Part shown: positions 16,342 through 41,004 of the stretch, piece after piece
Numbering within the stretch: the stretch's first letter is position 1
How the letters are laid out: each line of letters begins with the position of its first letter
DNA from: Lachnospiraceae bacterium
Lineage (GTDB): Bacteria > Bacillota > Clostridia > Lachnospirales > Lachnospiraceae
Assembly (NCBI GenBank): GCA_017623675.1
Contig: JAGAOO010000058.1
Span: forward strand, 1 to 48,526
Direction: 5' to 3'
Length of the DNA: 48,526 nucleotides
The notes under the pieces: model-generated
Seen by the model: the letters and a program-made list of their open reading frames with translations, nothing else
Told to the model about the DNA's origin: nothing
The model's database searches: none
Program-made: the position numbers and the translations under genes

Positions 16342-16373
16342 TTGAGCAGTTCCCCTCATTTTCCCTCTATACC
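16342..16373 (+). promoter_or_regulatory. ICE bipartite promoter motif, copy 1
   Basis: TTGAGC (16342-16347), 18 bp ending ATTTTCCC, then TCTATACC (16366-16373). It lies 54 bp before the surface protein start at 16428. Same spacing as the five other copies. Confidence 0.7.
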
Positions 16374-16427
16374 TTTGTGGATGTATTTTTGCATCAACAA
16401 ATTTAGAAGTATGGAGGATGAAGAAAA

Positions 16428-17315
16428 ATGAAGCAGAAAACAAATATCTTTGTGTGGTTGTTTTTGTCTTTAGTATTTCTAAGAGCATCAGGAAATATGA
16501 GGGCATATGCAGCGGAAGAAATTAAGACAGATAGTATCTATGTAAGAAGTGATTATGAGGTGACTCATACAGGTAGTGGCATATCAGAACTTGGTATTAT
16601 CGGAGAAGCGTATGACGAATATGACTTACTGATAAAAATTACAAAGAGTGGTGGATTGAAAGAAGGATACTTTCAGTGCTCTACCGACAAAGGAAAAACG
16701 TGGGGAGAGGAAAAACAAATACCGCTTTCCGGAATTTATATTTTAGGTAGTACCGGTCTTACCATAGAATTTTATTCAGTGGATGATATAGGATTTTTAA
16801 CAGGAGATACATACCATTGCTATATTCCTGATCCGACAAAGAAAATTGTGATAAAGCAGGAAATCGGAAGCAAAGTCAATATTACAGTGGAAAGTGATTC
16901 GGAAGACGTAAAAGCATTTGATGTTTTGGAAAATTCAGAGGCTGCTATAAGAATCAAGATTATTAAAGAGGGTACGATTGGTACGGCGGTTTGGAGATTG
17001 TCAACGGATGGCGGACTTACCTGGGGTGAGGAAGAATATGCCAAAGAAGAATTAGTATTTTCTTTTGGAAAAAATACTAATAGCCAGAGCGTAACCATTA
17101 AATTTTCTCCGGAACCGGGAACAGATGTAGAATTTCTAAGGAACGATGTAATAAGCATTTATGCAGAGCGGACGGAAAAGGATGGAACTGTAACGGCATT
17201 GGTTGTATTAGCTGCAATAGTAGCCTGTATTGGTGCTGGAGTATATTTTGGAAATAAGATACTAAAAAGTGCAATACCACCAGAAAGTGATTATGAATTA
17301 AGGGATGGGAACTGA
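16428..17315 (+). CDS. Secreted, membrane-anchored surface protein with two related domains
   Basis: A 295-residue protein starting at an ATG after GGAGGATGAAGAAAA. It has an N-terminal signal peptide (VWLFLSLVFLRASG, ending near AYAAE), then two related extracellular beta-rich domains, each with an STD-G-TWGEE motif (STDKGKTWGEE; STDGGLTWGEE). A C-terminal transmembrane helix (VTALVVLAAIVACIGAGVYFG) and a short polar tail follow. No LPXTG motif. The stop overlaps the start of a SipW-like signal peptidase gene (TGATG), suggesting that the peptidase processes this protein. It is the first gene under the ICE promoter motif and may contribute to the cell surface during mating; the function is inferred. 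Confidence 0.7.
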   Translation: MKQKTNIFVWLFLSLVFLRASGNMRAYAAEEIKTDSIYVRSDYEVTHTGSGISELGIIGEAYDEYDLLIKITKSGGLKEGYFQCSTDKGKTWGEEKQIPLSGIYILGSTGLTIEFYSVDDIGFLTGDTYHCYIPDPTKKIVIKQEIGSKVNITVESDSEDVKAFDVLENSEAAIRIKIIKEGTIGTAVWRLSTDGGLTWGEEEYAKEELVFSFGKNTNSQSVTIKFSPEPGTDVEFLRNDVISIYAERTEKDGTVTALVVLAAIVACIGAGVYFGNKILKSAIPPESDYELRDGN

Positions 17316-17704
17316 TGAAAAAGATAGGTAAGGCATTTGAAAGCGTATTACTTTGTCTGTTGCTTTTGTCAGTTGGTTCATTTGTAATTACATACATGAC
17401 AACCAGAGTGCCTACGATATTTGGCTATCGTTTATTTTTTGTAGTAACTGATTCTATGGAACCGGTATATACCAAAGGCACGGTATTGATTGCAGTTTCG
17501 GTAAAAGAAGACACTTTTATAGTAAATGAAATATATGCATATCGGGCAGGACAGAAAGATACCGGACTTAATCCGATAGTAGTTCACCGATTAGTAGATA
17601 TCTCCGAAGATAAATATATTTTTAAAGGGGATAATAATGCAGCTCCGGATAAAGCGGTTTGCAAGGAGCAGATATTGTATCGTATCATATATCCAAAACA
17701 GTAA
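17315..17704 (+). CDS. SipW-like (ER-type) signal peptidase I
   Basis: A 129-residue membrane protein overlapping the upstream surface protein gene by one base. An N-terminal membrane anchor (VLLCLLLLSVGSFVITYM) is followed by the catalytic box VVTDSMEPVYTKG (Ser 47), a VVHRLVDI segment with His 91 where the bacterial type has Lys, and FKGDNN with Asp 106. This Ser-His-Asp layout is that of SipW and archaeal/ER signal peptidases. SipW of Bacillus processes a few dedicated substrates (TasA, TapA). It is short but holds all the boxes. A terminator follows. Confidence 0.85.
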   Translation: MKKIGKAFESVLLCLLLLSVGSFVITYMTTRVPTIFGYRLFFVVTDSMEPVYTKGTVLIAVSVKEDTFIVNEIYAYRAGQKDTGLNPIVVHRLVDISEDKYIFKGDNNAAPDKAVCKEQILYRIIYPKQ

Positions 17705-17706
17705 AA

Positions 17707-17758: not shown

Positions 17759-18790
17759 TTAGTCTAAATAACCCAACTCCTTTAATTTTTCAAGAAAAAG
17801 AAGCTTTGCATGGTCCCGGAGTCGTGGAATCTCATTATGACCGTCTTTGATGTTGTACTTCTTTTTCAGGTTCTCACGGGAAACTTTCTTATCTCCGTTA
17901 TAATTTGCTCTGACATATTCCAGCCAAATACGAACTGCCAGTTTGTCCTTATCAGAGGAGTGCGGTGCATCCAAAATGGAAGAAACAAAGGACATAAGGA
18001 GTTGATGCAGTTCCTTGGCGAGAATATCACTTTCTACCGGATTTTCTTCGTTATACAAATCCTGAACGGAATATAAGCTGACAAATTCCATATGTAACAA
18101 GGTGTATATTTCACCGGGAGCAATATTGTGTGCCTGTCTGCCACGTAGACAGCTTTTGATTTCAGTTACTGACATATCGGCAGCATTAGGATAGGTTCTA
18201 CGGAAACTGTCAAAGGCCTGATACTGGTCGGCAGTAAGGTTGAAATAGTGATTGTCCCCTCTGTCGGTGCGTTCATTCTTAAGAATCTTATTCTGTAATT
18301 TTCTTGCATCTGTACTTAAATATAATCTGCCACCGAAAATGATAGGAGTTGCTGCCAAAGTCTCAAGATATGTATGAATTATGATGCTCTTGACATAATC
18401 TTCTGTAACATCCATGCGGCGGCGTTTTAACATTTTCGTATAGCCGGAAAGAGAAAGGCTGTGGGCATCCAGTATTTTTTCGGATTCAATCTGGGTATGC
18501 CATAATTTATATCGAAGTGTCAGAATAATATCGGCTTCTAAAGTGACGGCATCACGTTCTTCCATGTTTTCTAAAACAAAAATTCCATCATAAATAACGT
18601 ATGTATCAGCATGCTCCTGTGAAACCGGAGGAAGAGGAAACAATGGACAATCCGAGCAGTTCATTCCTGCAGAATCCGCATGAATCAGTTCGATAAATAA
18701 ATCTTCGCTGATAAAGCCGTCGGTAGTGTTTGCTACTTCCCATGCAATAGCATGGAGGTCCAGACGAGGACCAAAGAATTTGTGTGTCAT
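17759..18790 (-). CDS. Hypothetical protein (343 aa) beside the mob genes
   Basis: The ATG at 18790 has AAAAAGGAG upstream on the minus strand. It is a soluble protein with an early cysteine pair (MNCSDCPLFPLPP, about 43-55) that could bind metal. A long helical middle follows, and a basic C-terminus (SRENLKKKYNIKDGHNEIPRL) could be a DNA-binding helix. No family was recognised. It lies 239 bp downstream of the relaxase gene in the same direction. Two imperfect copies of the ICE promoter motif occur in that gap, so it may be a separate unit of the same regulon. Confidence 0.65.
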   Translation of the reverse strand: MTHKFFGPRLDLHAIAWEVANTTDGFISEDLFIELIHADSAGMNCSDCPLFPLPPVSQEHADTYVIYDGIFVLENMEERDAVTLEADIILTLRYKLWHTQIESEKILDAHSLSLSGYTKMLKRRRMDVTEDYVKSIIIHTYLETLAATPIIFGGRLYLSTDARKLQNKILKNERTDRGDNHYFNLTADQYQAFDSFRRTYPNAADMSVTEIKSCLRGRQAHNIAPGEIYTLLHMEFVSLYSVQDLYNEENPVESDILAKELHQLLMSFVSSILDAPHSSDKDKLAVRIWLEYVRANYNGDKKVSRENLKKKYNIKDGHNEIPRLRDHAKLLFLEKLKELGYLD

Positions 18791-18937
18791 AATTTTTCTC
18801 CTTTTTGTAAATTGGTGCAGCCGTATAGGCTGCGGGGTGTATGGGTAATAGAAGGTTGAAGAACTTCAAATTTCACGGAAAAAAGAAGACTTCAGCCTTT
18901 GTTTTAAGGATGAGAGAGCAGTTTTTAATTTTTGGTT

Positions 18938-19000
18938 TCTATATGGGAAAATGTGATTTGATAAAATTTGTTGATTTGAATGATGTGGTATAGGGATTAA
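18938..19000 (-). promoter_or_regulatory. Two degenerate ICE promoter-like motifs
   Basis: On the minus strand, ATTTTCCCATATAGA (18952-18938) and TAATCCCTATACC (19000-18988) resemble TTTTCCCTCTATACC but lack one or two bases of the conserved spacing. No TTGAG half lies at the right distance. They face the 18790 gene. Weak evidence. Confidence 0.25.
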
Positions 19001-19029
19001 TAATTTAAAATACGGTGGACTTATATTAA

Positions 19030-21528
19030 TTAAATATCCATATCCGTATCGTGAGAAAAATGATGCGTTTTGGCAGGGATAAAGTCATGCTCTTTAGGAT
19101 TTGGCTGTTCCGTTTCTTCTACAGATACATTCGCTGAAAAGGCTTCTTGCCACTTTGAACCATAGGTAAACCGTTTATCCTCGGATAAAGTAATGAATAC
19201 ATCTAACTGTTTTAAGGTTTTGTATTCTTGCGCTTTTGCCTTTAGCTTACGTTCTTCGGAATAGATGCTGTCCAGTTGGGCTCGTACCATGGCAAGGACT
19301 TCCTTTGAATTGGAGGTGTCATAGCCAAGTTCATGTATAGCACGACAGACATTACGCCATTCGTAGGCTGCTTCACGAAGTTCATAATCCAGATCGGAGA
19401 GATTTGCTTCAAACGTGGCATCCAGTGATATACGGACACGCTCCGGAGGAATCATAGAAAGCACCAGATCACGAAACAAGGAAGCTGCATCTTCTTTGGA
19501 AAGCTGTTCTACCGGAATATTGATTTCTTTTCCCAAGTAGAGTAGTAGTTCCGAAAGCTGTTTGGCTTTTAGTTTGGTTACGAGCAGGGACAGATTCTTT
19601 GCCGGAACATAAGCCGGGTTCCATGGTTTATAATAAGCTGCAAGATGCACTGCTTCATGGAAGGTAAGTCCGGTCAGGTCAATACCGGGCTGCAGATTAT
19701 GAACATATTGCAGAAAGCGGTCAGATACAGACCGTCCCTGTGCGTTTTCTTTCAAAGCAGCCAGCATCTTATAGGCAATTGCCTGAAACTTAGCTTCTGC
19801 GTTGTCCGGTGGAGCATCCTTTGAAGTCAGCAGTTTTGGCATATTAGAGGAATTATCTTTTAGAAATTGAATGCATTCCTTGGCTTCTGAATAGGTCACA
19901 TGGTCGAACTTCCTTGTCAGTTGATATTGTGGAGCATCCTGTAAGGCAAGATATAGTTCCCTTCGTTGTGACGGTGTCATAGGAAACAGAAGTGCTTTCC
20001 TTGCGGAAATATCCTTTTCTGTGGCTGGCAATAGACAGGCATCAGTAATACCTACAGATTCCATTTCTTTTTGAAGTTCTTGAAAATCCACCAGCAGGTC
20101 TGCAATATGCTCCAAGCCGTCCTTGCTTTGTGCAATATCCTGATAATCCTTTCGTAAGTGGGAATATTCAGCACCAACAGTATTCAGCCGGTTCTTTAGC
20201 TCTTCCTTAGTAGCTATGCCATTGGCAGACAATATTCCAATCGTTTCAGAAAGTCGTGCCGTTTTCCATGAAGCGGATTTGCGAATCGGATTATTGCTGG
20301 AGTCAACATCTGCAAACTTATCCTTAAAATATTGGATGAGTTTTATTGCCTTTAACAATAGTATTTCCAGCTCGGTTCTTCGCCTGCCAGAGTTGGCAAA
20401 TTTGCTGACATATAACTTTATTGCGGGTGAACTATGCGTGGGAGGCAGTTCTATAGCTTCTGTGGGGTATACAAGCCGATGTTCCGGTTCCTTAAAAAAT
20501 TCAAGGATGGATGCTTTGGTATATTCTTTTCCAAGTCCTACATCACGACAGCGGTGGTCTTTCCTTGGTGTGTAGTAGGTAAGGCTCTTTTCTGTTTCCC
20601 TGACGGTATAACCGGATTGGTGCATTTTCAGAAGAAAATCTTCATAAGAACCGGCACGTTCCAAATTGTAGGCAATCTCGTTACGAATAGTCTGCTTCCA
20701 TGATTTCCCCTGTTGCACCAGCTTCCATTCCTCATGGCTCATGGATTTTGCATTTTCAGGAGATAAGATAATCGGCAAGTCATATTTTCTGGAAAGACGG
20801 TCAGAAATATCACGGGCTGCTTTTAATGTGTCCATGGTATCAAGATATTTATGGTGTCCATCTAAGGAAAAAGCAGACATAACAATGTGATTATGCCGGT
20901 GTTCTTTATCCGTGTGGGAGGCGATAATTGCCGGAAATTCTAAGCCTTGTGCTTGCTCTAACTCCTGCATAAATTCAATCCCAATCTGGTGGATGAGCCG
21001 GGCATCAATTTCGTAACCGCAGACAAAGGGCGGTGGAAATGACATAATCCACATATAGCAGCTTCGGGCTTTATTTATCCGTTCCTGCATAAATTCTACC
21101 GTATCGCCGTTTTCATCATGGTATATGGGTGCTTTTTCATCATGAATCAGATTACCGGAGGAATCCCTGATGGGATTCCCCATGGTATCCAGCTTTGCAC
21201 GAAGTAATGTTTTTACCCGGTAGTGTCGTCCTGCATTCTCATTGTGGCCGTTGTGGTGGTAAGTATCAGCAGTACGTAGAAAAGCCTCCTCTGCCATGTC
21301 CGGTGAGCAGTGATGTCCACTTACCAAAATTTCTGTGTGCCCATCTTCTGATATGTAGGTTGTTTTTGATTGGTTGGTAGCGTAGTGGACAGCATTCTGC
21401 ATCACCTCCCAACCTTTTGCATCCGGATTTTTCGGTGACATTCTTGTCTTTTTTTCTTCCATGACATAATCCACCGTATTTCGGACAGCAGAAGCAGAGT
21501 GATAAGCCTTAAGCTTCGTTACCGCCAT
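19030..21528 (-). CDS. Relaxase / mobilisation nuclease (MOBP-type)
   Basis: An 832-residue protein. The N-terminal relaxase domain opens AVTKLKAYHSASAVRNTVDYV, with Tyr residues available as nicking nucleophiles. It carries the metal-binding histidine motif HTDKEHRHNHIVMSAF (about 205-220), which is the H...HxH signature of relaxases. Relaxases nick oriT, stay covalently attached to the strand and pilot it through the T4SS. The long C-terminal half is helical and variable. The start overlaps the end of the MobC-like gene by 20 nt, so the two are translationally coupled, and a candidate oriT lies upstream of the pair. It is transcribed opposite to most of the ICE. Confidence 0.88.
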   Translation of the reverse strand: MAVTKLKAYHSASAVRNTVDYVMEEKKTRMSPKNPDAKGWEVMQNAVHYATNQSKTTYISEDGHTEILVSGHHCSPDMAEEAFLRTADTYHHNGHNENAGRHYRVKTLLRAKLDTMGNPIRDSSGNLIHDEKAPIYHDENGDTVEFMQERINKARSCYMWIMSFPPPFVCGYEIDARLIHQIGIEFMQELEQAQGLEFPAIIASHTDKEHRHNHIVMSAFSLDGHHKYLDTMDTLKAARDISDRLSRKYDLPIILSPENAKSMSHEEWKLVQQGKSWKQTIRNEIAYNLERAGSYEDFLLKMHQSGYTVRETEKSLTYYTPRKDHRCRDVGLGKEYTKASILEFFKEPEHRLVYPTEAIELPPTHSSPAIKLYVSKFANSGRRRTELEILLLKAIKLIQYFKDKFADVDSSNNPIRKSASWKTARLSETIGILSANGIATKEELKNRLNTVGAEYSHLRKDYQDIAQSKDGLEHIADLLVDFQELQKEMESVGITDACLLPATEKDISARKALLFPMTPSQRRELYLALQDAPQYQLTRKFDHVTYSEAKECIQFLKDNSSNMPKLLTSKDAPPDNAEAKFQAIAYKMLAALKENAQGRSVSDRFLQYVHNLQPGIDLTGLTFHEAVHLAAYYKPWNPAYVPAKNLSLLVTKLKAKQLSELLLYLGKEINIPVEQLSKEDAASLFRDLVLSMIPPERVRISLDATFEANLSDLDYELREAAYEWRNVCRAIHELGYDTSNSKEVLAMVRAQLDSIYSEERKLKAKAQEYKTLKQLDVFITLSEDKRFTYGSKWQEAFSANVSVEETEQPNPKEHDFIPAKTHHFSHDTDMDI

Positions 21529-21973
21529 TCATCTCTTCCTCCAGCTTATCCATCACTTTTATGTTATGGCGCTTGCTGTAACGATTATCCCGGATGGTCT
21601 GATACAGATATTTCCGCACAGAATCAAACATTTCCTGCCGCAGGGCAGTTACATAACGCCAGACATTATTTCCGGTTTCCTTTATCTGATTTAGCAGCTG
21701 CTTGATTAAGACAGCCTCCTGCTCATAGATTTTCCCGCTTCGATAAATCGTAGGGAGTACCGCATCAATTTTTTTTCTCAATTTTTCAATTTGTTCCACA
21801 TATTCATCAATATCAGCAAAATCAATCACAAGCTCTACACCTGACTGCTTGGATAGCAGGTCACGGAAATATTCCGAAAAATTCATTCCTTTTCTTGCAG
21901 AATCTTCCTTTACTTTGTAATAGAGCTCATCATCCAAATAGATTCCGATTTTGTGTAGTGAAATTAAAATCAC
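21509..21973 (-). CDS. MobC-like relaxosome accessory protein (ribbon-helix-helix)
   Basis: A 154-residue protein beginning with a GTG. The N-terminus (KIGIYLDDELYYKVKEDSARKG, then NFSEYFRDLLSKQ) is a ribbon-helix-helix DNA-binding unit, as in MobC/TraY-type relaxosome proteins. A long coiled-coil-like helix follows (DEYVEQIEKLRKKIDAVLP). It would bind oriT and help melt it for the relaxase encoded by the overlapping next gene. The start is less certain because the ribosome binding site (AAAGG) is close to the GTG. Confidence 0.75.
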   Translation of the reverse strand: MILISLHKIGIYLDDELYYKVKEDSARKGMNFSEYFRDLLSKQSGVELVIDFADIDEYVEQIEKLRKKIDAVLPTIYRSGKIYEQEAVLIKQLLNQIKETGNNVWRYVTALRQEMFDSVRKYLYQTIRDNRYSKRHNIKVMDKLEEEMNGGNEA

Positions 21974-22150: not shown

Positions 22151-22182
22151 TGTATAGAGGGGGATTTTTGCGTTCTACTCAA
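22151..22182 (-). promoter_or_regulatory. ICE bipartite promoter motif, copy 2 (minus strand)
   Basis: Read on the minus strand: TTGAGT (22182-22177), 18 bp ending AAATCCCCC, then TCTATACA (22158-22151). It points at the MobC-relaxase operon. Same 18-bp spacing as the plus-strand copies. Confidence 0.7.
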
Positions 22183-22472: not shown

Positions 22473-22504
22473 ATGAGCAAAAGACATAATTTTCCCTCTA
22501 TAGA
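22473..22504 (+). promoter_or_regulatory. ICE bipartite promoter motif, copy 3
   Basis: ATGAGC (22473-22478), 18 bp ending ATTTTCCC, then TCTATAGA (22497-22504). It precedes the partition operon. Confidence 0.65.
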
Positions 22505-22549
22505 TTATTGTGTGGGGAACAAGAAATCACACGGAATCGGGGTGAAAAA

Positions 22550-23053
22550 GTGAAGAAAGTAATATATCTGAATTATGACTTGTCAAAGCCGGAGGATTTC
22601 ATGTGCTATAACTTTCTGTTAAGCCTCGGAAGGTCGAAAAAAAGCTTTGTCAATACAGTACTGCTTAGTACCCATCTGCCACAAAACTATGCAGTACCGG
22701 GAGTGTATTCGAATGTAGCAAAGGAACAGACGGAGAACAAAAGTCCGAAAGCTGTCGCAGAGAATATGGTACAGCCATTGGCAAAAGAAGATATATATGC
22801 TATGAAAAGTCCGCCGGAGGAAAGTATGATAGTAGATTGGAAGGAAGCAGAGGTAGTAGATGAAGTAGTACTAGAAACTTCTGATGTTGAAAATCCATAT
22901 CCTATGTTTACCACGGAGCAATTAGAGCGTATCCGGGAAAAGGGATTGGATTTGGAAGCTTTGACCGTAGGACAGCAGAAAGCTATGGCAAAGATGATGG
23001 AAGACTATATTCCTGTTGCAACGGCATATAGTCTGGCAGGATTCGAAAAATAA
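22550..23053 (+). CDS. ParR-like DNA-binding adaptor (167 aa)
   Basis: The GTG at 22550 follows CGGGGTG. The N-terminus (KKVIYLNYDLSKPEDFMCYN, then LLSLGRSKKSFVNTVLL) fits a ribbon-helix-helix domain of the ParR/StbB type, which binds centromere repeats. The rest is acidic and disordered (PPEESMIVDWKEAEVVDEVV), a layout that could contact the actin-like filament, and ends in a helix. It is directly upstream of a ParM-like gene (21-bp gap) and downstream of the CATAAG array. The gene order (adaptor first) is the reverse of plasmid R1 parMR. The assignment rests on context and the short N-terminal pattern. Confidence 0.55.
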   Translation: MKKVIYLNYDLSKPEDFMCYNFLLSLGRSKKSFVNTVLLSTHLPQNYAVPGVYSNVAKEQTENKSPKAVAENMVQPLAKEDIYAMKSPPEESMIVDWKEAEVVDEVVLETSDVENPYPMFTTEQLERIREKGLDLEALTVGQQKAMAKMMEDYIPVATAYSLAGFEK

Positions 23054-23074
23054 AAAGTAGTGAGGTAAAAGAAT

Positions 23075-24031
23075 ATGGATGAAATGCAGAAGATACCAAG
23101 AATTATTGCGGTGGATCCGGGAAAGTTTGCCACCAAGGCAGCAACGAACAGGGCGGATGGTACAGAACGGTTTCTTACATTCCGCACAAAGATGGAGGAA
23201 ACTTTGCGGACAGAAGCGCAGGGAAAAAGCTATGTGGTACAGTATGAAGGAAAGCGGTATTTGTTAGGGGAACAGGCAGAAGTAGGTTCTGCTAAGTCAA
23301 CCAAAGCGGAAGAAATACACAGGATTGCCACCTACACGGCACTGCATCAGTTGGCAAACGGAGAGGATAGCATTATCGTTGGTGTGGGTTGCCCGCTTTC
23401 TATTTATGAAAATGCTATCACGAAGGAAGCCTACAAGGAATTTCTGTTTCCGAACAGACAGATTGAAATTAAAGTAGATGGAACAACAAAACGGCTGAAT
23501 ATTTTGAGGGCAATTATTTTCCCGGAAAGCTCCGGTATTATCTATTTGGATAAAAGTAGATACGAAAATACCTCCGTGGGAATAGTAGATATCGGTGGAT
23601 TGAATGTAAATTGTTGTGTTTATAACAAGACAGTGCCGGTGTTATCTACTCTGTTTACAGAAAATCTGGGAAGCAATGTGCTTACCCAAAATTTGAAAAA
23701 CGCTTTGTCCACCAAGTACGGAGAGGACATACCGCAGTGGATGATGGACGATATTTTAAGAGACGGTTATGTAGTAGACAATATGACATCTACTGGCATT
23801 AGGGAAGGCTCCAAGGAGTTTATTGCAGATTTTAAGAAAAAGCACATCCAGAGCATCATCAAAAAGTGCGAGGCAAACGGCTGGAACCTTCGATTGACAA
23901 AATTAGTTTTTACCGGGGGAACCAGCGAACTGCTACGGGAGGAAATAAAAGAAGTAATACCGGGAGCGACCATTTGTGAGGAAGCTGAAAAAACTAATGT
24001 ACGTGGATTTTTAAAAGCATTAACGGAATAA
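23075..24031 (+). CDS. ParM/StbA-like actin-family partition ATPase
   Basis: A 318-residue protein. The actin-fold motifs are visible: phosphate 1, IIAVDPGKFATKAATN (about 9-24); phosphate 2, VGIVDIGGLNVNCCVYN (about 168-184); and the adenosine motif, LVFTGGTSELLREEI (about 281-295). ParM-type proteins form dynamic filaments that push plasmid copies apart. The length and motif spacing match plasmid ParM/Alp proteins rather than MreB or FtsA. With the preceding adaptor and the CATAAG array it forms a type II partition module, which implies that the excised ICE exists for some time as a replicating circle. Confidence 0.85.
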   Translation: MDEMQKIPRIIAVDPGKFATKAATNRADGTERFLTFRTKMEETLRTEAQGKSYVVQYEGKRYLLGEQAEVGSAKSTKAEEIHRIATYTALHQLANGEDSIIVGVGCPLSIYENAITKEAYKEFLFPNRQIEIKVDGTTKRLNILRAIIFPESSGIIYLDKSRYENTSVGIVDIGGLNVNCCVYNKTVPVLSTLFTENLGSNVLTQNLKNALSTKYGEDIPQWMMDDILRDGYVVDNMTSTGIREGSKEFIADFKKKHIQSIIKKCEANGWNLRLTKLVFTGGTSELLREEIKEVIPGATICEEAEKTNVRGFLKALTE

Positions 24032-24101: not shown

Positions 24102-24133
24102 TTGATGATTTCCAATATTTTTCCCTCTATACC
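24102..24133 (+). promoter_or_regulatory. ICE bipartite promoter motif, copy 4
   Basis: TTGATG (24102-24107), 18 bp ending ATTTTTCCC, then TCTATACC (24126-24133), 30 bp before the polymerase start at 24164. Confidence 0.7.
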
Positions 24134-29144: not shown

Positions 29145-29153
29145 GTGCGCATT

Positions 29154-32680: not shown

Positions 32681-34082
32681 TAAGTTTGATATTGCAAAGG
32701 GGCTGTTATATACACCACAGGACACTTTGAAAGCAATCCAGAATGAAGAAAAGTACCGCAATAATGTGTGGCTTGGACGGATAATTAAACTGATGCTCCG
32801 AGGCTTCCGCAAATGGTCACGTATCGCCGTGGTGTCCGGATTGAAAGGTTTAAATCCTTTTACCAGTGATAAGGATGCGGTGGAGCATGGCTATTATGAC
32901 TACCGGAAAACCAAAGAATTTTCCATGTTCCGAAACATGGTTGCCACGGAGCTTGGCATCAATGAAGCATACTTCCGGGAGGATATTTTGAAAAAGTACG
33001 CAGTCATACAGGAGATGTACCGGGATAATCCAAAAGCATTGGAAGCTCTGGAACTGACGGTGGAAGGATTTTTCCATGATAACAGTACGAACCTTACCTT
33101 GGAAGTGTTAGGCAATGAGCAGATGAAAAAGCTTATAGAAGGCCTCAAGGAGCATCCGGAGTATGAGTCTCTTTTGAAGCAAGTTGTTTTGTATCAGGAT
33201 AAATTTGGTACCGCTGTAGTGGACGCCCACCATGCAATGATTCGCTCCTTCTTGGAAAAAGACTACCTTGGCAGAGGATTTACCGCCCCGGAGCAGAAAA
33301 AGGGCTCTGTGTTCCTTCTGCCGCCTCCAAAGCAGGGGGAATTTGTGGCAGTGTCTACAGAACAGGGACTTGTGCAGGTAGAAGTTAAAGAAAAAGATGG
33401 GTGGAAGTATTATCAGCTGCCCGGAGAAACAGAAGCAGTTTTGCATAGATACATCGGAACAGAAAAAAATCTTTCCCTCCCGACTTCTATTAACGGCATA
33501 CCGGTTCAAAGTATCGGTTCCGCTGCTCTGATGGATGCACCGGTTAATACCCTTACGATAGATGCAGCCTATTGGACAAAGGAACGCTTAAATCCTGCAC
33601 ATCTTAGGACATCCGGCGAACAGGCTTCGGCTATTCACTGGCTGAATTTATCCGAGCAACAAAAAAATCAGCTAAAAGAAAATAAGAACTGGGCAGAAGA
33701 AATTCAAGAGAAGATTGAGATGCAAAAGCAAGTGAAAAACATAGCAGAACTGACAGAAGCAGCTTACCACGGAAATCTTCCAAAGGAGCTTGCAGTCCGT
33801 ATTGGAAATGAATATGCAACTATCAAAGCAGAGGAAAATTATTATGCTTGCAGCATACTTGATGAAAATCTGAACATCGTTGCAACTGACAGTTATAATG
33901 ATATGAGTGTATCTATTTCTGTAGCCCTTGCAGATGTTTTGGAAGAAGCCGGTCTTTCCGGAAAACAGGCAGAATTAGTTGACTATGAAAAATTGCAGAA
34001 GAAAATGCAATTAGAAAAACAGAAAGAGATAACAAAAGAATCTCCTAAAAAAATCAATAAATCCCAAGAGATTGGCAGATAA
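32664..34082 (+). CDS. ICE-associated hypothetical protein (472 aa)
   Basis: The ATG at 32664 (GAGGT upstream) overlaps the previous gene by 17 nt; an in-frame start at 32577 is deeper in that gene. It has an N-terminal helical part with a hydrophobic but not clearly membrane segment (IIKLMLRGFRKWSRIAVVSG). A beta-rich middle (VAVSTEQGLVQVEVKEKDGW) and a SINGIPVQSIGSAALMDAPV stretch follow, then a Lys/Gln-rich coiled-coil tail. No family was recognised. It is the last gene of the protease operon and is followed by the structured RNA candidate. Confidence 0.6.
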   Translation: MTGYYNKFDIAKGLLYTPQDTLKAIQNEEKYRNNVWLGRIIKLMLRGFRKWSRIAVVSGLKGLNPFTSDKDAVEHGYYDYRKTKEFSMFRNMVATELGINEAYFREDILKKYAVIQEMYRDNPKALEALELTVEGFFHDNSTNLTLEVLGNEQMKKLIEGLKEHPEYESLLKQVVLYQDKFGTAVVDAHHAMIRSFLEKDYLGRGFTAPEQKKGSVFLLPPPKQGEFVAVSTEQGLVQVEVKEKDGWKYYQLPGETEAVLHRYIGTEKNLSLPTSINGIPVQSIGSAALMDAPVNTLTIDAAYWTKERLNPAHLRTSGEQASAIHWLNLSEQQKNQLKENKNWAEEIQEKIEMQKQVKNIAELTEAAYHGNLPKELAVRIGNEYATIKAEENYYACSILDENLNIVATDSYNDMSVSISVALADVLEEAGLSGKQAELVDYEKLQKKMQLEKQKEITKESPKKINKSQEIGR

Positions 34083-34530: not shown

Positions 34531-34986
34531 ATGGAAGTAATAGCATATGAAATGAACTACGCTAATAATAGTGTTGAAAAAAGTAATATTGTTTGTGTTC
34601 CTTTCGAATTGGAGTACTTTCAAGAATATATGAAAATATACAATGAATGTTTTTACGAAATGAGAAAAGCGCTTGATATTCAACCATATAATTTTTTGAA
34701 TGATTATAAACAAATTATTGAAAAGGTTAAGGATATCTATTTACTTATAAATCAAGGAGAAATCATCGGTTCTATTGCATGTTATGGTAATGAGATAGAT
34801 GATTTAATAGTGAATAAGAAATTCCAACATAGAGGATATGGCAAACAGCTTTTACTATGGGGGATGCAACGTATTAGGGAAAAAAACAATGAACCTATTA
34901 CCTTACACGTTGCAAAATGGAATAACGATGCCCTTATGTTGTACAAGAAAGTGGGATTTGAAATAACGAATGAGGTGTTAGTATGA
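34531..34986 (+). CDS. GNAT-family N-acetyltransferase
   Basis: A 151-residue protein with the GNAT acetyl-CoA motif: IDDLIVNKKFQHRGYGKQLL (about 89-108), the Q/RxxGxG/A loop, then the C-terminal NNDALMLYKKVGFEI strand-helix. The ATG is preceded by GGAG. The substrate is unknown; GNATs acetylate small molecules or protein amines. The stop overlaps the start of an epimerase gene (GTATGA), so the two are coupled. Together they look like metabolic or resistance cargo. Confidence 0.85.
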   Translation: MEVIAYEMNYANNSVEKSNIVCVPFELEYFQEYMKIYNECFYEMRKALDIQPYNFLNDYKQIIEKVKDIYLLINQGEIIGSIACYGNEIDDLIVNKKFQHRGYGKQLLLWGMQRIREKNNEPITLHVAKWNNDALMLYKKVGFEITNEVLV

Positions 34987-35849
34987 AAATCTTAGTAATC
35001 GGCGGCACACGTTTTTTTGGAATACATATGGTAAACGAGTTATTGGCCAACGGACATGATGTTACTATTGCGACGAGAGGAAAAGCTTCTGACCAGTATG
35101 GCGATAGTGTAAAGCGAATCGTTTTTGAAAGAACAGATGGCGAGAGTGTAAAAAACGCAATAAGCGGAACACACTATGATGTGGTAATTGATAAAATTGC
35201 GTACTGCTCAAACGATATAAAGTACATTATGGATGTTGTGGATTGTGACAAATACATTCATATGTCAAGTACATCGGTGTATAATCCTAAACACATAAAC
35301 ACAATCGAATCTGACTTTGATGGATTTTCAAAGGATTTTGTTTGGTGTGACAGATTCGCATTTCCATATGAGCAAATCAAGCGACAGGCAGAATACGCTT
35401 TATGGCAAAAATATTCTGATAGAAACTGGATTGCTGTAAGGTATCCGTTCGCAATAGGAAAAGATGATTATACAAAGAGGTTGCTGTTCTATGTTGAACA
35501 CATTATGAAATCTATTCCTATGAATATCGATAATTTAGATTATCAAATGAGCTTTATACGTTCCGATGAGGCTGGAAAGTTTATAGCATTTTTGGTTGAC
35601 AAAGAGGTCACAGGCGCAATTAACGGAAGTGCTGAGGGCACTATCTCTATAAAGGAAATAATTGATTATGTTGAGAAGAAAACAGGAGCAAGAGCAATTA
35701 TTGACAAGAATGGAGATAATGCCCCCTACAATGGAGAACCAGAATATAGCATAAACACAGAAAAAGCCAAAACAATGGGATTCCAGTTTTCGATACTTCG
35801 TGATTGGATATACGAACTATTAGATTATTATATTGAATTAATTCGGTAA
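34983..35849 (+). CDS. NAD(P)-dependent epimerase/dehydratase (extended SDR)
   Basis: A 288-residue protein overlapping the GNAT gene by 4 nt. The N-terminus MKILVIGGTRFFGIHMVNEL is the Rossmann nucleotide-binding motif of extended SDRs. The HMSSTSVY segment (about 92-99) carries the Ser/Thr of the active site. The catalytic Tyr-x3-Lys is not clean: FPYEQIKRQAE (about 127-137) holds Y with K at +4. It resembles small NAD-dependent epimerases in Firmicutes. The substrate is unknown, probably a nucleotide sugar or a small metabolite. Confidence 0.8.
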   Translation: MKILVIGGTRFFGIHMVNELLANGHDVTIATRGKASDQYGDSVKRIVFERTDGESVKNAISGTHYDVVIDKIAYCSNDIKYIMDVVDCDKYIHMSSTSVYNPKHINTIESDFDGFSKDFVWCDRFAFPYEQIKRQAEYALWQKYSDRNWIAVRYPFAIGKDDYTKRLLFYVEHIMKSIPMNIDNLDYQMSFIRSDEAGKFIAFLVDKEVTGAINGSAEGTISIKEIIDYVEKKTGARAIIDKNGDNAPYNGEPEYSINTEKAKTMGFQFSILRDWIYELLDYYIELIR

Positions 35850-35870
35850 ATTGGAGAGGAGTGTAATTAT

Positions 35871-36053
35871 ATGAAGAAGTTTGAATATAAGGTTGTTTCC
35901 ATTCCTACAAGCGTACCGCTTGGTGTAAAGGGATATGAAAAGATAGCAACCGAATTTGAAAACGCCCTCAACGAACTCGGTGCAGAGGGGTGGGAACTCA
36001 TCCAGCGTGCAGATGGTCTCTTTTTCTTCAAAAGAGAAATATATGTTGGGTAA
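35871..36053 (+). CDS. DUF4177 domain protein (60 aa)
   Basis: The ATG at 35871 has GGAGAGGAG upstream. The sequence MKKFEYKVVSIPTS, then ALNELGAEGWELIQRADGLFFFKR, is the DUF4177 pattern (yeykvv... lNelGaeGWElv), a small beta-alpha-beta fold of unknown function found widely in bacteria and on mobile elements. It lies 21 bp after the epimerase gene, probably in the same transcript. Confidence 0.75.
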   Translation: MKKFEYKVVSIPTSVPLGVKGYEKIATEFENALNELGAEGWELIQRADGLFFFKREIYVG

Positions 36054-36157
36054 ATTTTGCAATTTCCATAGAGGGCAAAATGCCTATTACATTTTCAAAA
36101 GCTTTCTTGACGGAATAATGGACGGCTGTCTGGTTCTTGTGTGTTACTTTATAGCAC

Positions 36158-36292
36158 ATGAGTATTTGTGGCGGAGAATTAGAGATAGAAGTACTAGAAA
36201 CAGGCCGGGGTTCCACGAATATTCTCTGCAAAGCTTGTTGTAAGATAGGGCACATTGATGGAAAAGTAGTCAGAAAAGAGGAAAAGGTATGA
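36158..36292 (+). CDS. Possible small Cys-rich protein (44 aa)
   Basis: A short open frame, MSICGGELEIEVLETG, ending CKACCKIGHIDGKVVRKEEKV, with cysteines at 4 and near 24-28 that could form a metal-binding knuckle. Its TGA overlaps the ATG of the next gene (ATGA), a common sign of translational coupling. There is no clear ribosome binding site at its own start, so it may instead be the end of a decayed gene. Confidence 0.35.
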   Translation: MSICGGELEIEVLETGRGSTNILCKACCKIGHIDGKVVRKEEKV

Positions 36293-37209
36293 GTGATTTA
36301 CAAAGCCAGATGCATGAAATGCGTGAAAAACATAAGGATTGGTACATGTTTAATTCAAATATCATTGCCATTTCTAATGTAATTGACCTAAATGTAATAG
36401 AAAAGATACTCTTCGAAGAAAAACTTGAGTCAACAAAGGTTCGTGTGAAGGGCTGGGAACTTATTGCCTACCCTTTCCTTGGTGACGGCACAATCGCTCT
36501 GATTTATGAATTGCATCATAAGAAAAATAAAGAAATCGTTAATGACTACAAAGTAATTATTATTGATCCGACAGAAAGCATGGAGCCGTTGATTTTAGGC
36601 GTCACTATGTACAACCAATGGGTTTCTGCAATGTGTGGAACCTATGTTAATCCATACTTTGTTGTACGTGATGAAGAAGAGGAAACTATGCTTTTTCGTG
36701 CAAATGATAATCCTGCATACCCAGAAGAGGTATATCTTGGCGAAAACGTAACAAGGGTTATTACTAAAGATAACGGAAATATTGTTGTGGGATATTCTTG
36801 TGATGCGGAAAATGCGATTATTAGAGAATATTCCGCTGGTGGTAAGTTTATAGGGCATATCGTCAATGCGGATGCAATCTCCTGTACCGATATCACTACG
36901 GATGATAACGATAAGGTATGGTATCATCTGTTTCCGTTTAACAAAATTTATTGCATGGATGATGGTATAAGTTTTGATATTGATGTGGTTGGGTTTGATG
37001 GATTTTTCTTCTGTAATGAAGGTAACTCTATGATAACAGCGTTTTCTACAGAGAAAGGTCAGGTATTATACCAGTTAGAAAAGCAAGATAATGGTTTCCG
37101 GAATCCTACGGTTATTTCTGTAAATACAGAAGATGAAGGATTTTCTACTCTTTGTGACCTTATTGCATGTCGTATGGAAAATTTACTGTTTATTGGTATT
37201 ATCAAATAA
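36289..37209 (+). CDS. Hypothetical protein (306 aa), possibly beta-propeller
   Basis: The ATG is preceded by AGAGGAAAAGG. After a helical N-terminus the protein is almost all beta, with repeated blades: NVTRVITKDNGNIVVGY, then IREYSAGGKFIGHIVNADAI, then TDDNDKVWYHLFPF. The pattern suggests a small beta-propeller. There is no signal peptide. The function is unknown. It lies 24 bp upstream of the next gene, probably one transcript. Confidence 0.65.
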   Translation: MSDLQSQMHEMREKHKDWYMFNSNIIAISNVIDLNVIEKILFEEKLESTKVRVKGWELIAYPFLGDGTIALIYELHHKKNKEIVNDYKVIIIDPTESMEPLILGVTMYNQWVSAMCGTYVNPYFVVRDEEEETMLFRANDNPAYPEEVYLGENVTRVITKDNGNIVVGYSCDAENAIIREYSAGGKFIGHIVNADAISCTDITTDDNDKVWYHLFPFNKIYCMDDGISFDIDVVGFDGFFFCNEGNSMITAFSTEKGQVLYQLEKQDNGFRNPTVISVNTEDEGFSTLCDLIACRMENLLFIGIIK

Positions 37210-37233
37210 TATGTTTCAAGGAGAAGGAAGCAG

Positions 37234-38367
37234 ATGAACAGAGAAAAATTTGATATGCTCATTAATAATTATATTGACAGGTATGAGACTATTAACCGGG
37301 AGCACGATGAAATCGATAAATGGATGGCAGTTTTAAAAGCGTATAATACATGGGAACTGGAAGCTGAAGATTTTTCAGCTATGCTTAAGGAAACGATGGG
37401 AAATACAGTTATCCTAGATAATGGCCATGTACAGCCAGTTTCCGGATTAGTTGCTTTGTGTAAACTTAGCACTGGTATACAGGAAGAAGTTAGAAGTGAA
37501 TTTAGAAAGTTATTTTCTTCGGATGGTGGTGATATTAAAGCTAGACAGCAAAAGACAATGACTTTTGTTGACAATATTAATAAACTGTTAGCAAGAGAAT
37601 TTCCGGGTAAATGGAGATATGAACAGCATATAAGGAACGCTATCGGTTATTTAACATTGATTTCTCCGGAGGATAATTATTTTTACAAACATAAAGAAGC
37701 AAAAGCCTATGCAGACTGTATTGAGTTTGGGGATGATATAGGAACCGGACAGGACTTTCGCTTAGACCATTACTATCGCATGTGTGATGAACTGGTTATG
37801 GAAATACAGGATAATGAAGAATTAATAAAGCTTCTTGATGGTTTATTAATTGAAGCAGCGGAAAACGATACTATTATAAATATGCCTGGCAAACTCAACA
37901 TTCTTGCCTATGATATCATGTATTGCGCTGATTCCTATAATCTTTATGATAATATACCAGTAATAAAGAAATCTAAGACTGCAACTGAAAAAAAACACGC
38001 TGAAAAGCAGCAACAGATTGAAGTGTTGAAAGAAAAGAAGTCTGGGTATGCCGTGGAATTACAGAAGATATTAGACGAATTAGATGCCATGGACTTACCG
38101 GATTTATGTAATGAGCAGGTGTCTTGTAATAAGTACGGTACAGGAAAGGTTATTAAACAGGGTGAATGCAATATAACCATTCAGTTTTCGAATGAAGAAA
38201 AGAAGTTTAAGTTACCAGATGCAGTGGTATCAGGATTTCTTAAGCTAGAAAATAAGCAGTATGTCGATACATGCTTTAAAATTGCCGGGTTACTTGAACA
38301 AAAAAAGGATATAGAGGGTATAATTAAGGAGATTGATAGAAAACTCTCTTTTCAATATTTTACTTGA
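37234..38367 (+). CDS. Hypothetical protein (377 aa) with C-terminal Tudor-like segment
   Basis: The ATG has AAGGAGAAGG upstream. It is a helical N-terminal domain of about 250 residues and a Lys/Glu-rich coiled coil (TEKKHAEKQQQIEVLKEKK). The segment CNKYGTGKVIKQGECNITIQ, then FSNEEKKFKLP, follows. That segment resembles the small Tudor/SH3 module found at the C-terminus of UvrD/PcrA and in bacterial proteins that bind nucleic acid or RNA polymerase; the match is by pattern only. It sits next to a type I toxin locus and upstream of an ApeA-like gene, so it may be defence cargo. Confidence 0.6.
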   Translation: MNREKFDMLINNYIDRYETINREHDEIDKWMAVLKAYNTWELEAEDFSAMLKETMGNTVILDNGHVQPVSGLVALCKLSTGIQEEVRSEFRKLFSSDGGDIKARQQKTMTFVDNINKLLAREFPGKWRYEQHIRNAIGYLTLISPEDNYFYKHKEAKAYADCIEFGDDIGTGQDFRLDHYYRMCDELVMEIQDNEELIKLLDGLLIEAAENDTIINMPGKLNILAYDIMYCADSYNLYDNIPVIKKSKTATEKKHAEKQQQIEVLKEKKSGYAVELQKILDELDAMDLPDLCNEQVSCNKYGTGKVIKQGECNITIQFSNEEKKFKLPDAVVSGFLKLENKQYVDTCFKIAGLLEQKKDIEGIIKEIDRKLSFQYFT

Positions 38368-38398
38368 AGTAATAAGAAAACTATGTTATATTATAGAA

Positions 38399-38482
38399 AA
38401 GGGAAACCGGAAGCGGTGTACCCTAGCTAATAATTGTTACCATGAACAACCGTCACTCTAGCACAGTGGCGGTTATTTCTTT
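38399..38482 (+). ncRNA. Antitoxin RNA candidate for the 38574 toxin
   Basis: Promoter: TTGAAG (38364-38369), 17 bp, TATATT (38387-38392). The terminator stem is AACCGTCACT (38448-38457) and AGTGGCGGTT (38465-38474), followed by TATTTCTTTC, and overlaps the 3' end of the convergent toxin gene. Its 5' end (AGGGAAACC, then GCGGTGTACC) resembles the toxin mRNA leader in the same sense, as at the 27 kb locus. Confidence 0.6.
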
Positions 38483-38574
38483 CTATCGCTTTTGTCCTTG
38501 AATACCTGATAGCACAGACCAACAAGGGCAACAATGAATAAACCTATCTGGATTAACTCCGAATATGTAACCAT
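38473..38574 (-). CDS. Putative holin-like type I toxin peptide (33 aa)
   Basis: A one-helix peptide on the minus strand: MVTYSELIQIGLFIVALV, then GLCYQVFKDKSDRKK. This is the Hol_Tox/Fst plan and is similar in layout to the peptide at 27286. The ribosome binding site AGGAGGG can pair with a CCCTCC in its leader, and an upstream GGAGGG can compete for it. Minus-strand promoter: TTGCCA, 17 bp, TAGAAT (about 38670-38700). A convergent plus-strand RNA overlaps the 3' end. It is a second, sequence-divergent type I toxin locus in the same ICE. Confidence 0.7.
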   Translation of the reverse strand: MVTYSELIQIGLFIVALVGLCYQVFKDKSDRKK

Positions 38575-38752
38575 TGGCAGCCCTCCTTTCTTTCGTCTGG
38601 AGGGCAAAGAAATATATTACCCTCCGAAGAAGGTACACCGCCTCGCTCTGATTTCCCTTGAGAAAAATTCTACCATAATTAGTTTCCTATGGCAAGAATT
38701 TCATCAATAAATATCAGAATTTCAATTCAGAAATATAATATTGGAAGTAGTC

Positions 38753-38781
38753 TTGACGAGAGGGAACACCAAAGATAAAAT
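38753..38781 (+). promoter_or_regulatory. Sigma-A-type promoter of the ApeA-like gene
   Basis: TTGACG (38753-38758), 17-bp spacer, TAAAAT (38776-38781), 25 bp before the ATG at 38806. It is not the ICE bipartite motif, so this gene is expressed independently of the transfer regulon. Confidence 0.7.
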
Positions 38782-38805
38782 GAAAGAAAAATGTAGGAGG
38801 CAGCT

Positions 38806-40287
38806 ATGAATATAGAACAATTTTTTAAAGAATATTCTTGGGAAGCATTAGAAAGTGAACGAAATTTTACCGGAGATATTACAGCAAAAAATACGATGTC
38901 TCCGGCCGCTATTGAACAAAATATAGAGTCGCTACAGGTGTACCGTGATGATAAATATAAGATATGGGTAAAAGCAGAAGGGATTATGCCGGAATATTCC
39001 TTTGAACAGGAAAAATTACCGGATGTACTTAGCGGGACACTACTTCAAGGCGGTGTAATAGAGTGTGATGCGATGTATAATGGTGTGATTACTATTAAAG
39101 ATTGTTTTCGAAGAACTCATACGATAGATTATAAATTATCAGATAGACCGGAAACGGCATTTCATGCTTTATATCAATCACACGAAGTAAATTGGAACAA
39201 GCGAATGCTTCTGCCGGAAAGTGAAACAGATACATTGATTGAATGGTATTTAAACGGTCCGGATAGTACGGTTTTATTTTGTGATGGAAGTAAAACAATT
39301 GATAAGGTGACACGGAGTGTTAAAAGAAATGGTGTAAAGATTGCCTCACAGGGATATACGACAGAGAATTGTTCTACAGATTGTTTGTATATTAAATATC
39401 TTGATACCGGTGTGTTGTTACGAAAAATACCATCAGATTATAAACCGGAATGGAGTAATAAAGTTGCTTTAGAATACCGTACTGCATATGGTCGTATTCC
39501 AGAAGCGGAAGAAAGAAAAAAAGTTGCAGAATTGCTTGGATTTCTCATGGGCAGGCATCTGATTTTAGTTGGTGATACCGCTTATCAGGGAGCCGTAATA
39601 TTGGAATCCAACATGTATAATCCTTGTGTGGATGCAGTTTCGGAATGTTCCAGTAACACATTGGAGGTTATTCCAGTACATAGTTATTACCATGACGAGC
39701 GTAATAATTTTCGTGAGTTTGCTCAAGCTTTATTGCCAACTTATCTGGAACTAAGTGATAAGTATGGTTTTGATTTGGTTTTTGCGAGGTACTGGCTTGC
39801 CAATACTATGCCAATTGGTGTAAGTATGCCGATTATAGCAGGAGCCATGGAATCCATTCAGAAGGTTTGGTTTAAGGGGCAAAAGTCCAAGACGAAAGCA
39901 GTCTATATGGATAAGGATGCTTATGAAGAAGCAATCAGTGAGTTTATGGAGCAACTGGAAGCAAAACTCGGAGAATGCGAAAACAAAGAAAAACTATTAC
40001 GGAAAATATCCGGTTGTTATCAGATGGGTGCAAACGAGAAATATTACACTTTTTTGGACGAATTAGGATTAGAACATGGTGATGCCGAAAGGGAGTGTAT
40101 AAAAGCAAGAAACAGCTTTACGCATGGAGATAACAACGATAACTATGAGGAAGTTATAAAGAATACAAAAACAATGTCTCTGCTTTTGTCAAGAAGTATA
40201 TTAAAATTACTTGGTTATAGTGGAATGTATATTGATACATCCGTTCTTGGACATCCAAGGAAGCATATTGATGAGAAAATTGGATAA
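38806..40287 (+). CDS. ApeA-like HEPN-domain protein (candidate abortive-infection defence)
   Basis: A 493-residue protein. The ATG has GTAGGAGG upstream. The N-terminal half is beta-rich (YKIWVKAEGIMPEYSFEQEK, then LPDVLSGTLLQGGVIECDAM) and resembles the ApeA N-terminal domain. The C-terminal half is helical and ends in the HEPN RNase signature RNSFTH (435-440, R-N-x3-H) within KARNSFTHGDNND. HEPN nucleases cleave RNA; ApeA is a single-gene anti-phage system. It has its own promoter and lies in the cargo block. The N-terminal match is by pattern only; the HEPN motif is clear. Confidence 0.7.
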   Translation: MNIEQFFKEYSWEALESERNFTGDITAKNTMSPAAIEQNIESLQVYRDDKYKIWVKAEGIMPEYSFEQEKLPDVLSGTLLQGGVIECDAMYNGVITIKDCFRRTHTIDYKLSDRPETAFHALYQSHEVNWNKRMLLPESETDTLIEWYLNGPDSTVLFCDGSKTIDKVTRSVKRNGVKIASQGYTTENCSTDCLYIKYLDTGVLLRKIPSDYKPEWSNKVALEYRTAYGRIPEAEERKKVAELLGFLMGRHLILVGDTAYQGAVILESNMYNPCVDAVSECSSNTLEVIPVHSYYHDERNNFREFAQALLPTYLELSDKYGFDLVFARYWLANTMPIGVSMPIIAGAMESIQKVWFKGQKSKTKAVYMDKDAYEEAISEFMEQLEAKLGECENKEKLLRKISGCYQMGANEKYYTFLDELGLEHGDAERECIKARNSFTHGDNNDNYEEVIKNTKTMSLLLSRSILKLLGYSGMYIDTSVLGHPRKHIDEKIG

Positions 40288-40972
40288 TACCTTATGTGAA
40301 TTACATTAGAAAATGCTTATGTAATATGCAGATGTAAAGCACAATGCAGTGCTTGGGATGGTGATTTCTTCGCACGAAGCAAGAACAGCTGGCAGGGGAA
40401 ACAGATGGCGTTTAGCAGGTCAAGAATAAAAAAATGGAAAAATTGGTGCTGACTCTCAAAGTCGAAGCCGATTTTTCCATTTTTTTATTCTTGATGTGCT
40501 GCCATCGGGTATTTTTCTCTGCCAGCGTAGCCCGCCCACCCGCCCTATGTGATACGTTTTGCTATTGTGAAAACACAGTAGCAAAATCGCATCTGAAAAC
40601 AATTGGCTTTGGTGCAATAGCAGCGTAGAAATTCTCAAAAATATGGTGCGAATGATGTCTTGAACTTTTAAGTCATCAGGCGCACCATATTTCTTTGAGA
40701 TTTTCGGAACTAAAAAGAAAAGTTATGAGGAGTGAAGAAACTATGCTGGTATGTACCTAATGCCAGAGATACACAGGAAACCGTGTACCGTAAGACAAAC
40801 ATATCTCCTATGTTTTTCTTACGGTATTGGGTTTCCGTCCGGGGCGCCACAGCCTGTCGCTTGATAAGTCCCCCTGGGAGGGGGCAGGGGGACGCGCCAA
40901 CGGCGCAGGGGTGGGAATGGTACCATAAGAAAAATTATACTTTCTAAATATTTTAAAGTTTTAATTCTGAAA
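40288..40972 (+). other. Gene-free region with four large hairpins
   Basis: No supported gene. Besides the long hairpin at 40388-40526 it contains GAAATTCTCAAA, then ATATGGTGCG (40628-40650), pairing with CGCACCATATTTC, then TTTGAGATTTTC (40681-40705). GGAAACC plus TACCGTAAGA (40774-40793) pair with TCTTACGGTA and GGTTTCC (to 40834). GTCCCCCT/AGGGGGAC (40868-40893) is followed by GCGCC/GGCGC (40894-40906). It ends at the promoter motif for virD4. Confidence 0.6.
40388..40526 (+). repeat. Long imperfect fold-back hairpin (139 nt)
   Basis: Left arm, in order: GCTGGCAG, GATGGC, AGCA, then TCAAGAATAAAAAAATGG followed by AAAAAT. Right arm, in reverse order: ATTTTT, CCATTTTTTTATTCTTGA, TGCT, GCCATC, CTGCCAGC. 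The inner 24 bp are perfectly paired, and a small GACT/AGTC stem closes the loop. It is too long for a simple terminator. It could be a single-strand replication origin, a small RNA or a MITE-like insertion. Confidence 0.6.
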
Positions 40973-41004
40973 TTGAGTAAATCTAAGATTTTTCCCTCTA
41001 TACC
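40973..41004 (+). promoter_or_regulatory. ICE bipartite promoter motif, copy 6
   Basis: TTGAGT (40973-40978), 18 bp ending ATTTTTCCC, then TCTATACC (40997-41004), upstream of virD4. Confidence 0.75.

Follow-up and report, generated by a model that had tools for sequence, protein, structure and literature searches.

A shared promoter-like element upstream of the core operons of an integrative and conjugative element from Lachnospiraceae

A composite DNA motif was analyzed in a 48,526-nucleotide (nt) stretch assigned to a Lachnospiraceae bacterium (GenBank assembly GCA_017623675.1, contig JAGAOO010000058.1, positions 1 to 48,526; hereafter "the window"), which carries part of an integrative and conjugative element (ICE), recognized as such by a relaxase, a coupling protein and a VirB4-type ATPase. 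The results support the presence of one shared promoter-like element before every delimited core operon, absent from the cargo genes and not scattered over the genomes scanned, suggesting that one regulator probably turns the core genes on together. The best explanation, with a probability of roughly 0.5, is that the sites represent the promoter class of one element-wide regulon, read by an alternative sigma factor specified by the element. The core programme and its trigger are usually unknown for elements of uncultured gut bacteria, and a signature of this kind marks the core regulon operon by operon, predicts exact transcription starts and separates core from cargo.

A previous sequence-only reading of the window had described six copies of a bipartite motif, each directed at a different operon and with exactly 18 bp between its halves. 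The coordinates, strands, spacing and target operons were correct at 6/6 sites, and two additional sites were located past the window end, on a second copy of the element (contig C71 of genome G299, see below), for a total of eight, all of them (8/8) with the 18-bp gap. The wording of the motif held in part: the strict form TTGAG...TCTATACC fits three of the six window sites (16342, 29154 and 40973; 0 in 100 shuffles), while the other three deviate, either in the first half (TTGATG at 24102, ATGAGC at 22473) or in the second (22473 ends in TCTATAGA, with TATAGA, and 22182 on the minus strand in TCTATACA, with TATACA). The word ATTTTTCCC was found exactly in three window sites (24102, 29154 and 40973). 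The spacer had been described as conserved as well as the halves, which was observed for its 3' part and not for columns 7-16: mean pairwise identity among the eight sites was 0.85 for columns 1-6, 0.44 for columns 7-16 and 0.93 for columns 17-30. The column profile consists of TGAG at 1-4 (TGAT once), A at 6, a weaker C/A preference around 10-13, TTTT at 17-20, CCCTCTATA at 21-29 and C at 30 (G once), followed, beyond the box described earlier, by T at 36 and a purine at 37, each in 8/8 sites. Conserved columns were thus 1-6 and 10-30, plus T36 and purine 37; upstream of the sites, only 2/60 columns reached p<0.02, approximately as expected by chance.

The extent of this conservation indicates that the sites are very probably promoters that extend from approximately -36 to +1 and have a -10 different from that of sigma-A. 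If transcription starts at column 37, TGAG(T/C)A would lie at -36 to -31 and CTATAC at -12 to -7, with a 6-nt discriminator; an alternative start at column 38 may exist, which would make TATACC the -10. Start codons preceded by a Shine-Dalgarno (SD) sequence lie 27-54 nt downstream of the site in 7/8 cases, and at the seven sites for which a start codon was called, the leaders would measure approximately 22-49 nt if transcription began at column 37. A sigma-70-type promoter was searched for at 22182, 22473, 24102, 29154 and 40973 (all sites except 16342 and the two beyond the window) and none was found, although shuffled sequences yielded 5.9, 0.8 and 1.6 by chance, so that the absence alone is weak evidence. 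This search looked for the features of an ordinary sigma-A promoter (a TTGACA-like box, 16-18 nt, and a TATAAT-like box with A2 and T6). Position six of the possible TATAnn hexamer was T in 2/8 sites (TATACT).

The distribution of the sites followed the division between core and cargo. All of the core operons that could be delimited (8/8, with limits read from strand and gaps) had a site before their first gene, versus none of the four cargo units in the window (kinase; GNAT/epimerase; 36289-38367; ApeA-like), bearing out the earlier claim that each copy faces a different operon while the kinase and ApeA-like cargo lack the motif. Of the two sites on C71, one precedes a leucine-rich repeat (LRR) surface protein and small secreted-looking proteins, and the other a 320-amino-acid (aa) membrane-type protein, an HD-domain protein and a second VirB4-like protein. 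In C71 the VirD4 operon also runs on beyond the window, with a VirB6-like gene, PrgI and VirB4 (the names VirB4-like and VirB6-like derive from BLAST overlap with relatives, not from Pfam). Genes for LytTR/GHKL and BlaI-type proteins in the distal part of the element have no site.

In order to evaluate the specificity of the motif, a 36-column matrix was built from all eight sites. Their scores ranged from 39.5 to 50.2 (26.1 to 46.1 when left out in turn), while the next best place in the element scored 8.8, and in 955,184 scanned bases, overlaps included, nothing else scored at least 12 except one phage-like coding sequence (16.7). The exact 13-mer TTTTCCCTCTATA occurred five times in the 2.8-Mb assembly to which the window belongs (G000), always in the window contig, within the element, and eight times in G299, seven of them in the element and the eighth on contig C40. 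TGAG or TGAT was present at the same upstream distance in 7/7 exact 13-mers of the element, and the C40 copy had no TGAG half. With up to one mismatch, the 13-mer was found at 9 places in G000 (4 inexact) vs. 12 and 14 for reversed-pattern controls, and at 13 places in G299 vs. 8 and 9; since these totals (9 and 13) were not above the control totals (26 and 17), discrimination is limited to the exact word and the composite. In G000, four places matched the composite when up to three mismatches were allowed, all in the window contig. Among 299 genomes of the family, the 16-mer TTTTTCCCTCTATACC matched two, G000 (three places) and G064 (one, inside an opposite-strand open reading frame, ORF), and among 295 genomes of the order, the composite with up to one mismatch matched five (five places in G000 and one in each of the four others; six for the reversed-pattern control), both genome sets being centred on G000, probably not the true host. 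None of the genomes scanned other than G000 and G299 had more than one match. In viral contigs, the 16-mer matched 10 stretches, none scoring at least 12 on the matrix, whereas the composite matched one, located within an ORF on a phage-like contig (score 16.7). With regard to the genome-wide scan that the sequence-only reading had proposed as a check, the set of sites was confined to the element in what was scanned, as would be the regulon of an element-encoded sigma factor. A test for repeated upstream words also recovered the motif in the element, with TTTCCCTCTATA in 6 upstream regions and a control maximum of 3.

Composite sites and operons of the window (positions of the window; operon rows give the genes in each unit).
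Feature	Position	Strand	Details	Location
Composite site 1	16342..16373	+	putative start ~16379	upstream of surface protein/SipW operon
Composite site 2	22151..22182	-	putative start ~22145	upstream of RHH/relaxase/343-aa operon
Composite site 3	22473..22504	+	ATGAGC...TCTATAGA; putative start ~22510	upstream of par operon
Composite site 4	24102..24133	+	TTGATG...TCTATACC; putative start ~24139	30 nt before PolB start at 24164
Composite site 5	29154..29185	+	putative start ~29191	27 nt before SD-preceded ATG 29213, protease-like operon
Composite site 6	40973..41004	+	putative start ~41010	52 nt before SD-preceded GTG 41057, VirD4 operon
Surface protein operon	16428..17704	+	secreted-looking surface protein (295 aa, no family hit), SipW/archaeal-type signal peptidase I (129 aa)	
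Mobilisation operon	17759..21973	-	RHH protein, MobA/VirD2 relaxase (832 aa), 343-aa protein of unknown family	
Segregation pair	22508..24031	+	small protein (ParR by position only, no family hit), actin-like ParM (ALP_N)	
DNA polymerase B	24164..27157	+	DNA_pol_B_2, 25.9 bits vs. cut-off 25.8	
Protein kinase cargo gene	27426..29051	+	no site	
Protease-like operon	29213..34082	+	zinc-protease-like protein, TM2 match below cut-off, 608-aa protein, LPD16 protein	
Cargo genes	34531..40287	+	GNAT, epimerase, 306-aa, 377-aa, ApeA-like HEPN (just below cut-off); no site	
Transfer operon	41057..48526	+	VirD4 coupling protein, 384-aa protein, LRR/DUF285 protein, type IV secretion system pilin	

The second copy was identified by a PolB protein scan of the genome contigs, which returned one relative contig, JAGBCB010000018.1 (C71, 146 kb), from the Lachnospiraceae metagenome-assembled genome (MAG) RGIG8982 (G299). 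This contig was identical to the window over 1-18237 and 38237-48526, and along 14164-37154 (22,991 bases, stretch L015) showed eight differences, all within 32533-32572; the comparison covered the window except 37155-38236. The 40-base cluster of differences sits near the overlap of two ORFs. C71 extends beyond the window end, where the 13-mer alone found the two further places, both with TGAGCA or TGAGTA upstream at the same distance. The two copies of the element may be non-independent samples. Two tsf genes were present in G000 (the one in the window and one on contig C22) and one in G299 (that of the window), and the pyrH regions of the two genomes were 67% identical. Because of the second tsf on C22, the identity of the window tsf stretch to that of G299 and the 67% identity of the pyrH regions, the window contig (C70) is probably misbinned in the MAG G000, which makes the scan of G299 the more relevant genome-wide test.

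Regarding the boundaries, Xis-like and integrase genes at 14379-15927 are followed by ATGTAATGCGA at 16044, which is repeated at 1333 in the tsf 3' end; a second candidate pair, GAAATAAAAAACG at 15971 and 1842, is longer but AT-rich. Either repeat pair suggests a separate integrated element of approximately 14-15 kb with its integrase at the right end. This neighbouring element, at about 1333-16054 beside tsf, contains primase-like DUF927, GmrSD-type, resolvase and Xis-Int genes. The motif-bearing element appears to start near 16.0-16.1 kb, in tandem behind its neighbour, and its own integrase and far end would lie past the first base of C71, a continuation that was sought in both genomes and not found. 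Neither the neighbouring element nor the most distal 20 kb (L033) contains the motif.

In the proposed mechanism, the eight sites would be the promoters of one element-wide regulon, composed of a -35-like TGAG(T/C)A, a loose spacer closing in a T-rich tract, a -10-like CCCTCTATAC and a start at the purine after the invariant T. They would be read by RNA polymerase with an alternative (ECF-like) sigma factor of the element, whose gene would probably lie in the unseen far end; the factor might otherwise be a very divergent protein or be supplied by the host. Once on, this factor would jointly activate the genes for surface proteins, mobilisation, segregation, replication and transfer, with the cargo not under the switch. 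Chances are about even that the reader of the sites is a sigma factor. Such a dedicated factor fits best because of the fixed spacing in 8/8 sites, the asymmetric two-box layout, the start-like step and a -10 that is poor for sigma-A; the regulon of an element-encoded sigma factor would be expected to show conserved -35-like and -10-like boxes, a constant distance apart, ahead of several of the element's operons, as was observed here. As for the single switch for replication, segregation and transfer proposed from the sequence alone, the shared promoter-like element before all core operons stands, a dedicated sigma factor or activator is plausible, and an operator is less supported. The wider proposal, that of a Gram-positive ICE whose core operons have a promoter class and a sigma factor of their own, shielded from the sigma factors of the host and with the cargo outside, is put forward tentatively, at somewhat less than even odds.

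A known precedent for an element-encoded sigma factor is SigN (ZpdN) of the Bacillus subtilis plasmid pBS32, where most of the listed promoters contain the -35/-10 pair ATTTACGTTT ... CAGATATAAT (PMC6751061). Both systems have one conserved -35/-10 pair before many operons, predominantly restricted to the element, although the boxes in Table 2 of that work are unlike those found here, sigN is known and autoregulated whereas no sigma gene was found in the approximately 62 kb searched here, and the operons of the present element are those of conjugation, segregation, replication and surface-protein genes (PMC6751061). If the sigma factor is real, the ICE would hold a counterpart of the SigN switch of pBS32, which would also be a candidate for an orthogonal expression system. 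Searches of the open-licence PMC literature listed no paper describing an ICE-encoded sigma regulon in its title or at the start of its abstract.

Several observations weigh against a sigma factor encoded by the element. A six-frame search for Sigma70_r2 gave 18 matches in G000 and 30 in G299, with no match in either the window or the element portion of C71, and Pfam scans of the element region agreed in showing no sigma factor; the search covered roughly 62 kb of an element whose far end is missing from both assemblies, and a very divergent or region-4-only sigma protein could escape it. We know of no sigma consensus that the boxes match. The relaxase-side site (22151..22182, minus strand) lies approximately 178 nt from the GTG at 21973, and a long ORF with an SD-preceded start was lacking within 230 nt. 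Furthermore, related transfer systems lack the motif (see below), and with two near-identical copies the motif is left without an evolutionary test. The only Sigma70_r2 match on C71 (82768) is chromosomal, beyond tsf; from its place on the chromosomal side of rpsB/tsf, we infer a SigD-type gene. Seven regions around some of the sigma genes of G299 contained no relatives of the 51 element-region proteins tried. For the 343-aa protein, which may be a regulator, the predicted structure was of too low quality to be informative (mean predicted local distance difference test score of 44).

A serious rival, possible but less probable than the sigma factor, is an activator encoded by the element. By binding to TGAGYA, to TTTTCCC or to both, it would bring the ordinary RNA polymerase with sigma-A to a weak -10 (TATACC/T), in the manner of SetCD. 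TATAC(C/T) does resemble a -10, with TATACT in 2/8 sites, and no Sigma70_r2 gene is present in the part of the element seen, while its distal part has genes for a LytTR response regulator, a GHKL kinase and a BlaI-type protein. Against such an activator, the possible -10 ends in T at 2/8 sites, and neither the dyad nor the direct repeat expected from most dimeric activators was detected; LytTR proteins use direct repeats. In the SXT/R391 ICEs, a single SetCD motif precedes many operons, transfer genes included, and sites stand back to back at divergent promoters, both as found here (PMC4344509). The SetCD motifs, compared by position and not by logo, are positioned directly 5' of the -35 box, an arrangement interpreted as class II activation, whereas the block described here overlaps the -35 position and runs on through a poor -10, with conservation from TTTTCCCTCTATAC to the presumed start (PMC4344509). 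SetCD also belongs to a Gram-negative family. SigN and SetCD provide two precedents for one motif before many operons, through an element-encoded sigma factor and an element-encoded activator, respectively. Beyond the window, where the earlier reading had proposed to look for a regulator gene, LytTR, GHKL and BlaI-type genes are present and no sigma gene was found in the part of the element seen, whose far end is missing. The LytTR response regulator and the GHKL kinase are located at L033:6465-10275, beside the BlaI-type gene and possibly an M56 peptidase-like gene, and in a relative ICE in G111 an AgrB gene lies near the LytTR/GHKL matches.

Silencing of the core operons is expected of a resident element, and the whole promoter is conserved, as would be the case if a repressor covered each promoter of the integrated element and its release were the switch. 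This operator is nevertheless unlikely. The sites showed no dyad symmetry of the kind a palindromic repressor operator would have (144/300 column shuffles were equally good) and no direct repeat (299/300), and the five scanned sites have no sigma-70-type promoter to cover. These results, together with the promoter-like layout including the T-purine step, are the reason why an operator is less supported than the promoter class favoured here. A palindromic operator-like repeat looks different, as in the ICE-like contig G000:C4 (3 upstream regions). There (L139, 15000-34999), the palindrome GTGTTCACGGTGAACAC was observed upstream of three ORFs.

Two other explanations are very improbable. In the first, the motif would act in RNA, with CCCUC in the leader pairing with the ribosome-binding site to control translation. 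CCCUC pairs with high probability in several leaders, but mean pairing at the seven sites with a called start was 0.75 vs. 0.71 on unrelated SD-bearing leaders (18/60 control sets were as high), the fixed spacing of TGAG is left unexplained, and there was no Rfam match in 14000-48526. This anti-SD role was tested and not supported, with pairing no better than in controls. In the second, one promoter segment would have been duplicated recently, and the copies would not be regulated in common: the sites at 29154 and L034:1259 (minus strand) share 82.7% over 52 bp, and 22151 and 22473 belong to an inverted repeat (32 nt, 72%), but columns 7-16 have drifted to 0.44 pairwise identity with 17-30 kept at 0.93, and no other site pair appeared in the comparison of L034/L037 with the window (pairs within the window were not all compared). 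Between the divergent mobilisation and segregation sites (22183-22472), imperfect repeats with CATAAG words were observed, possibly a ParR-binding centromere or an origin of transfer.

Relatives of the relaxase were found in 3/397 genomes (E<=1e-30, itself included) and of VirD4 in 111/397 genomes of the family (E<=1e-60, own included). VirB4 was 31.9-36.3% identical to plasmid proteins among the matches listed (20 of 1829), 15 of these 20 being annotated as "VirB4-like conjugal transfer ATPase, CD1110 family". CD1110-type systems of Firmicutes, which are linked to Tn1549/CTn elements, are alike in their ATPase and different in the motif, which was found at 0/29 relative VirD4 loci (best score 11.8). 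Larger stretches of G000:C4, G111, G135, G153, G384 and G395 scanned with the matrix gave nothing above 11.8 either. In the related-ICE scan suggested by the earlier reading, the motif has so far been observed in a single lineage of elements. Pattern-led searches of viral contigs, which catch close relatives only, detected no PolB, VirD4 or VirB4.

Relatives of PolB were found in 1/299 genomes of the family, namely itself (E<=0.001), and it shares 23-30% identity with proteins encoded on plasmids of Staphylococcus, Fusobacterium and Pseudosulfitobacter (44 records). The small zinc-protease-like protein at 29213-29818, with a sub-threshold match to the ATLF domain, opens a core operon. When repeated upstream words were searched for in seven relative regions, four showed nothing above shuffled controls; the words CAGGCACC/GGTGCCTG were recovered in G384:C68 and an SD-type word in G395:C18.

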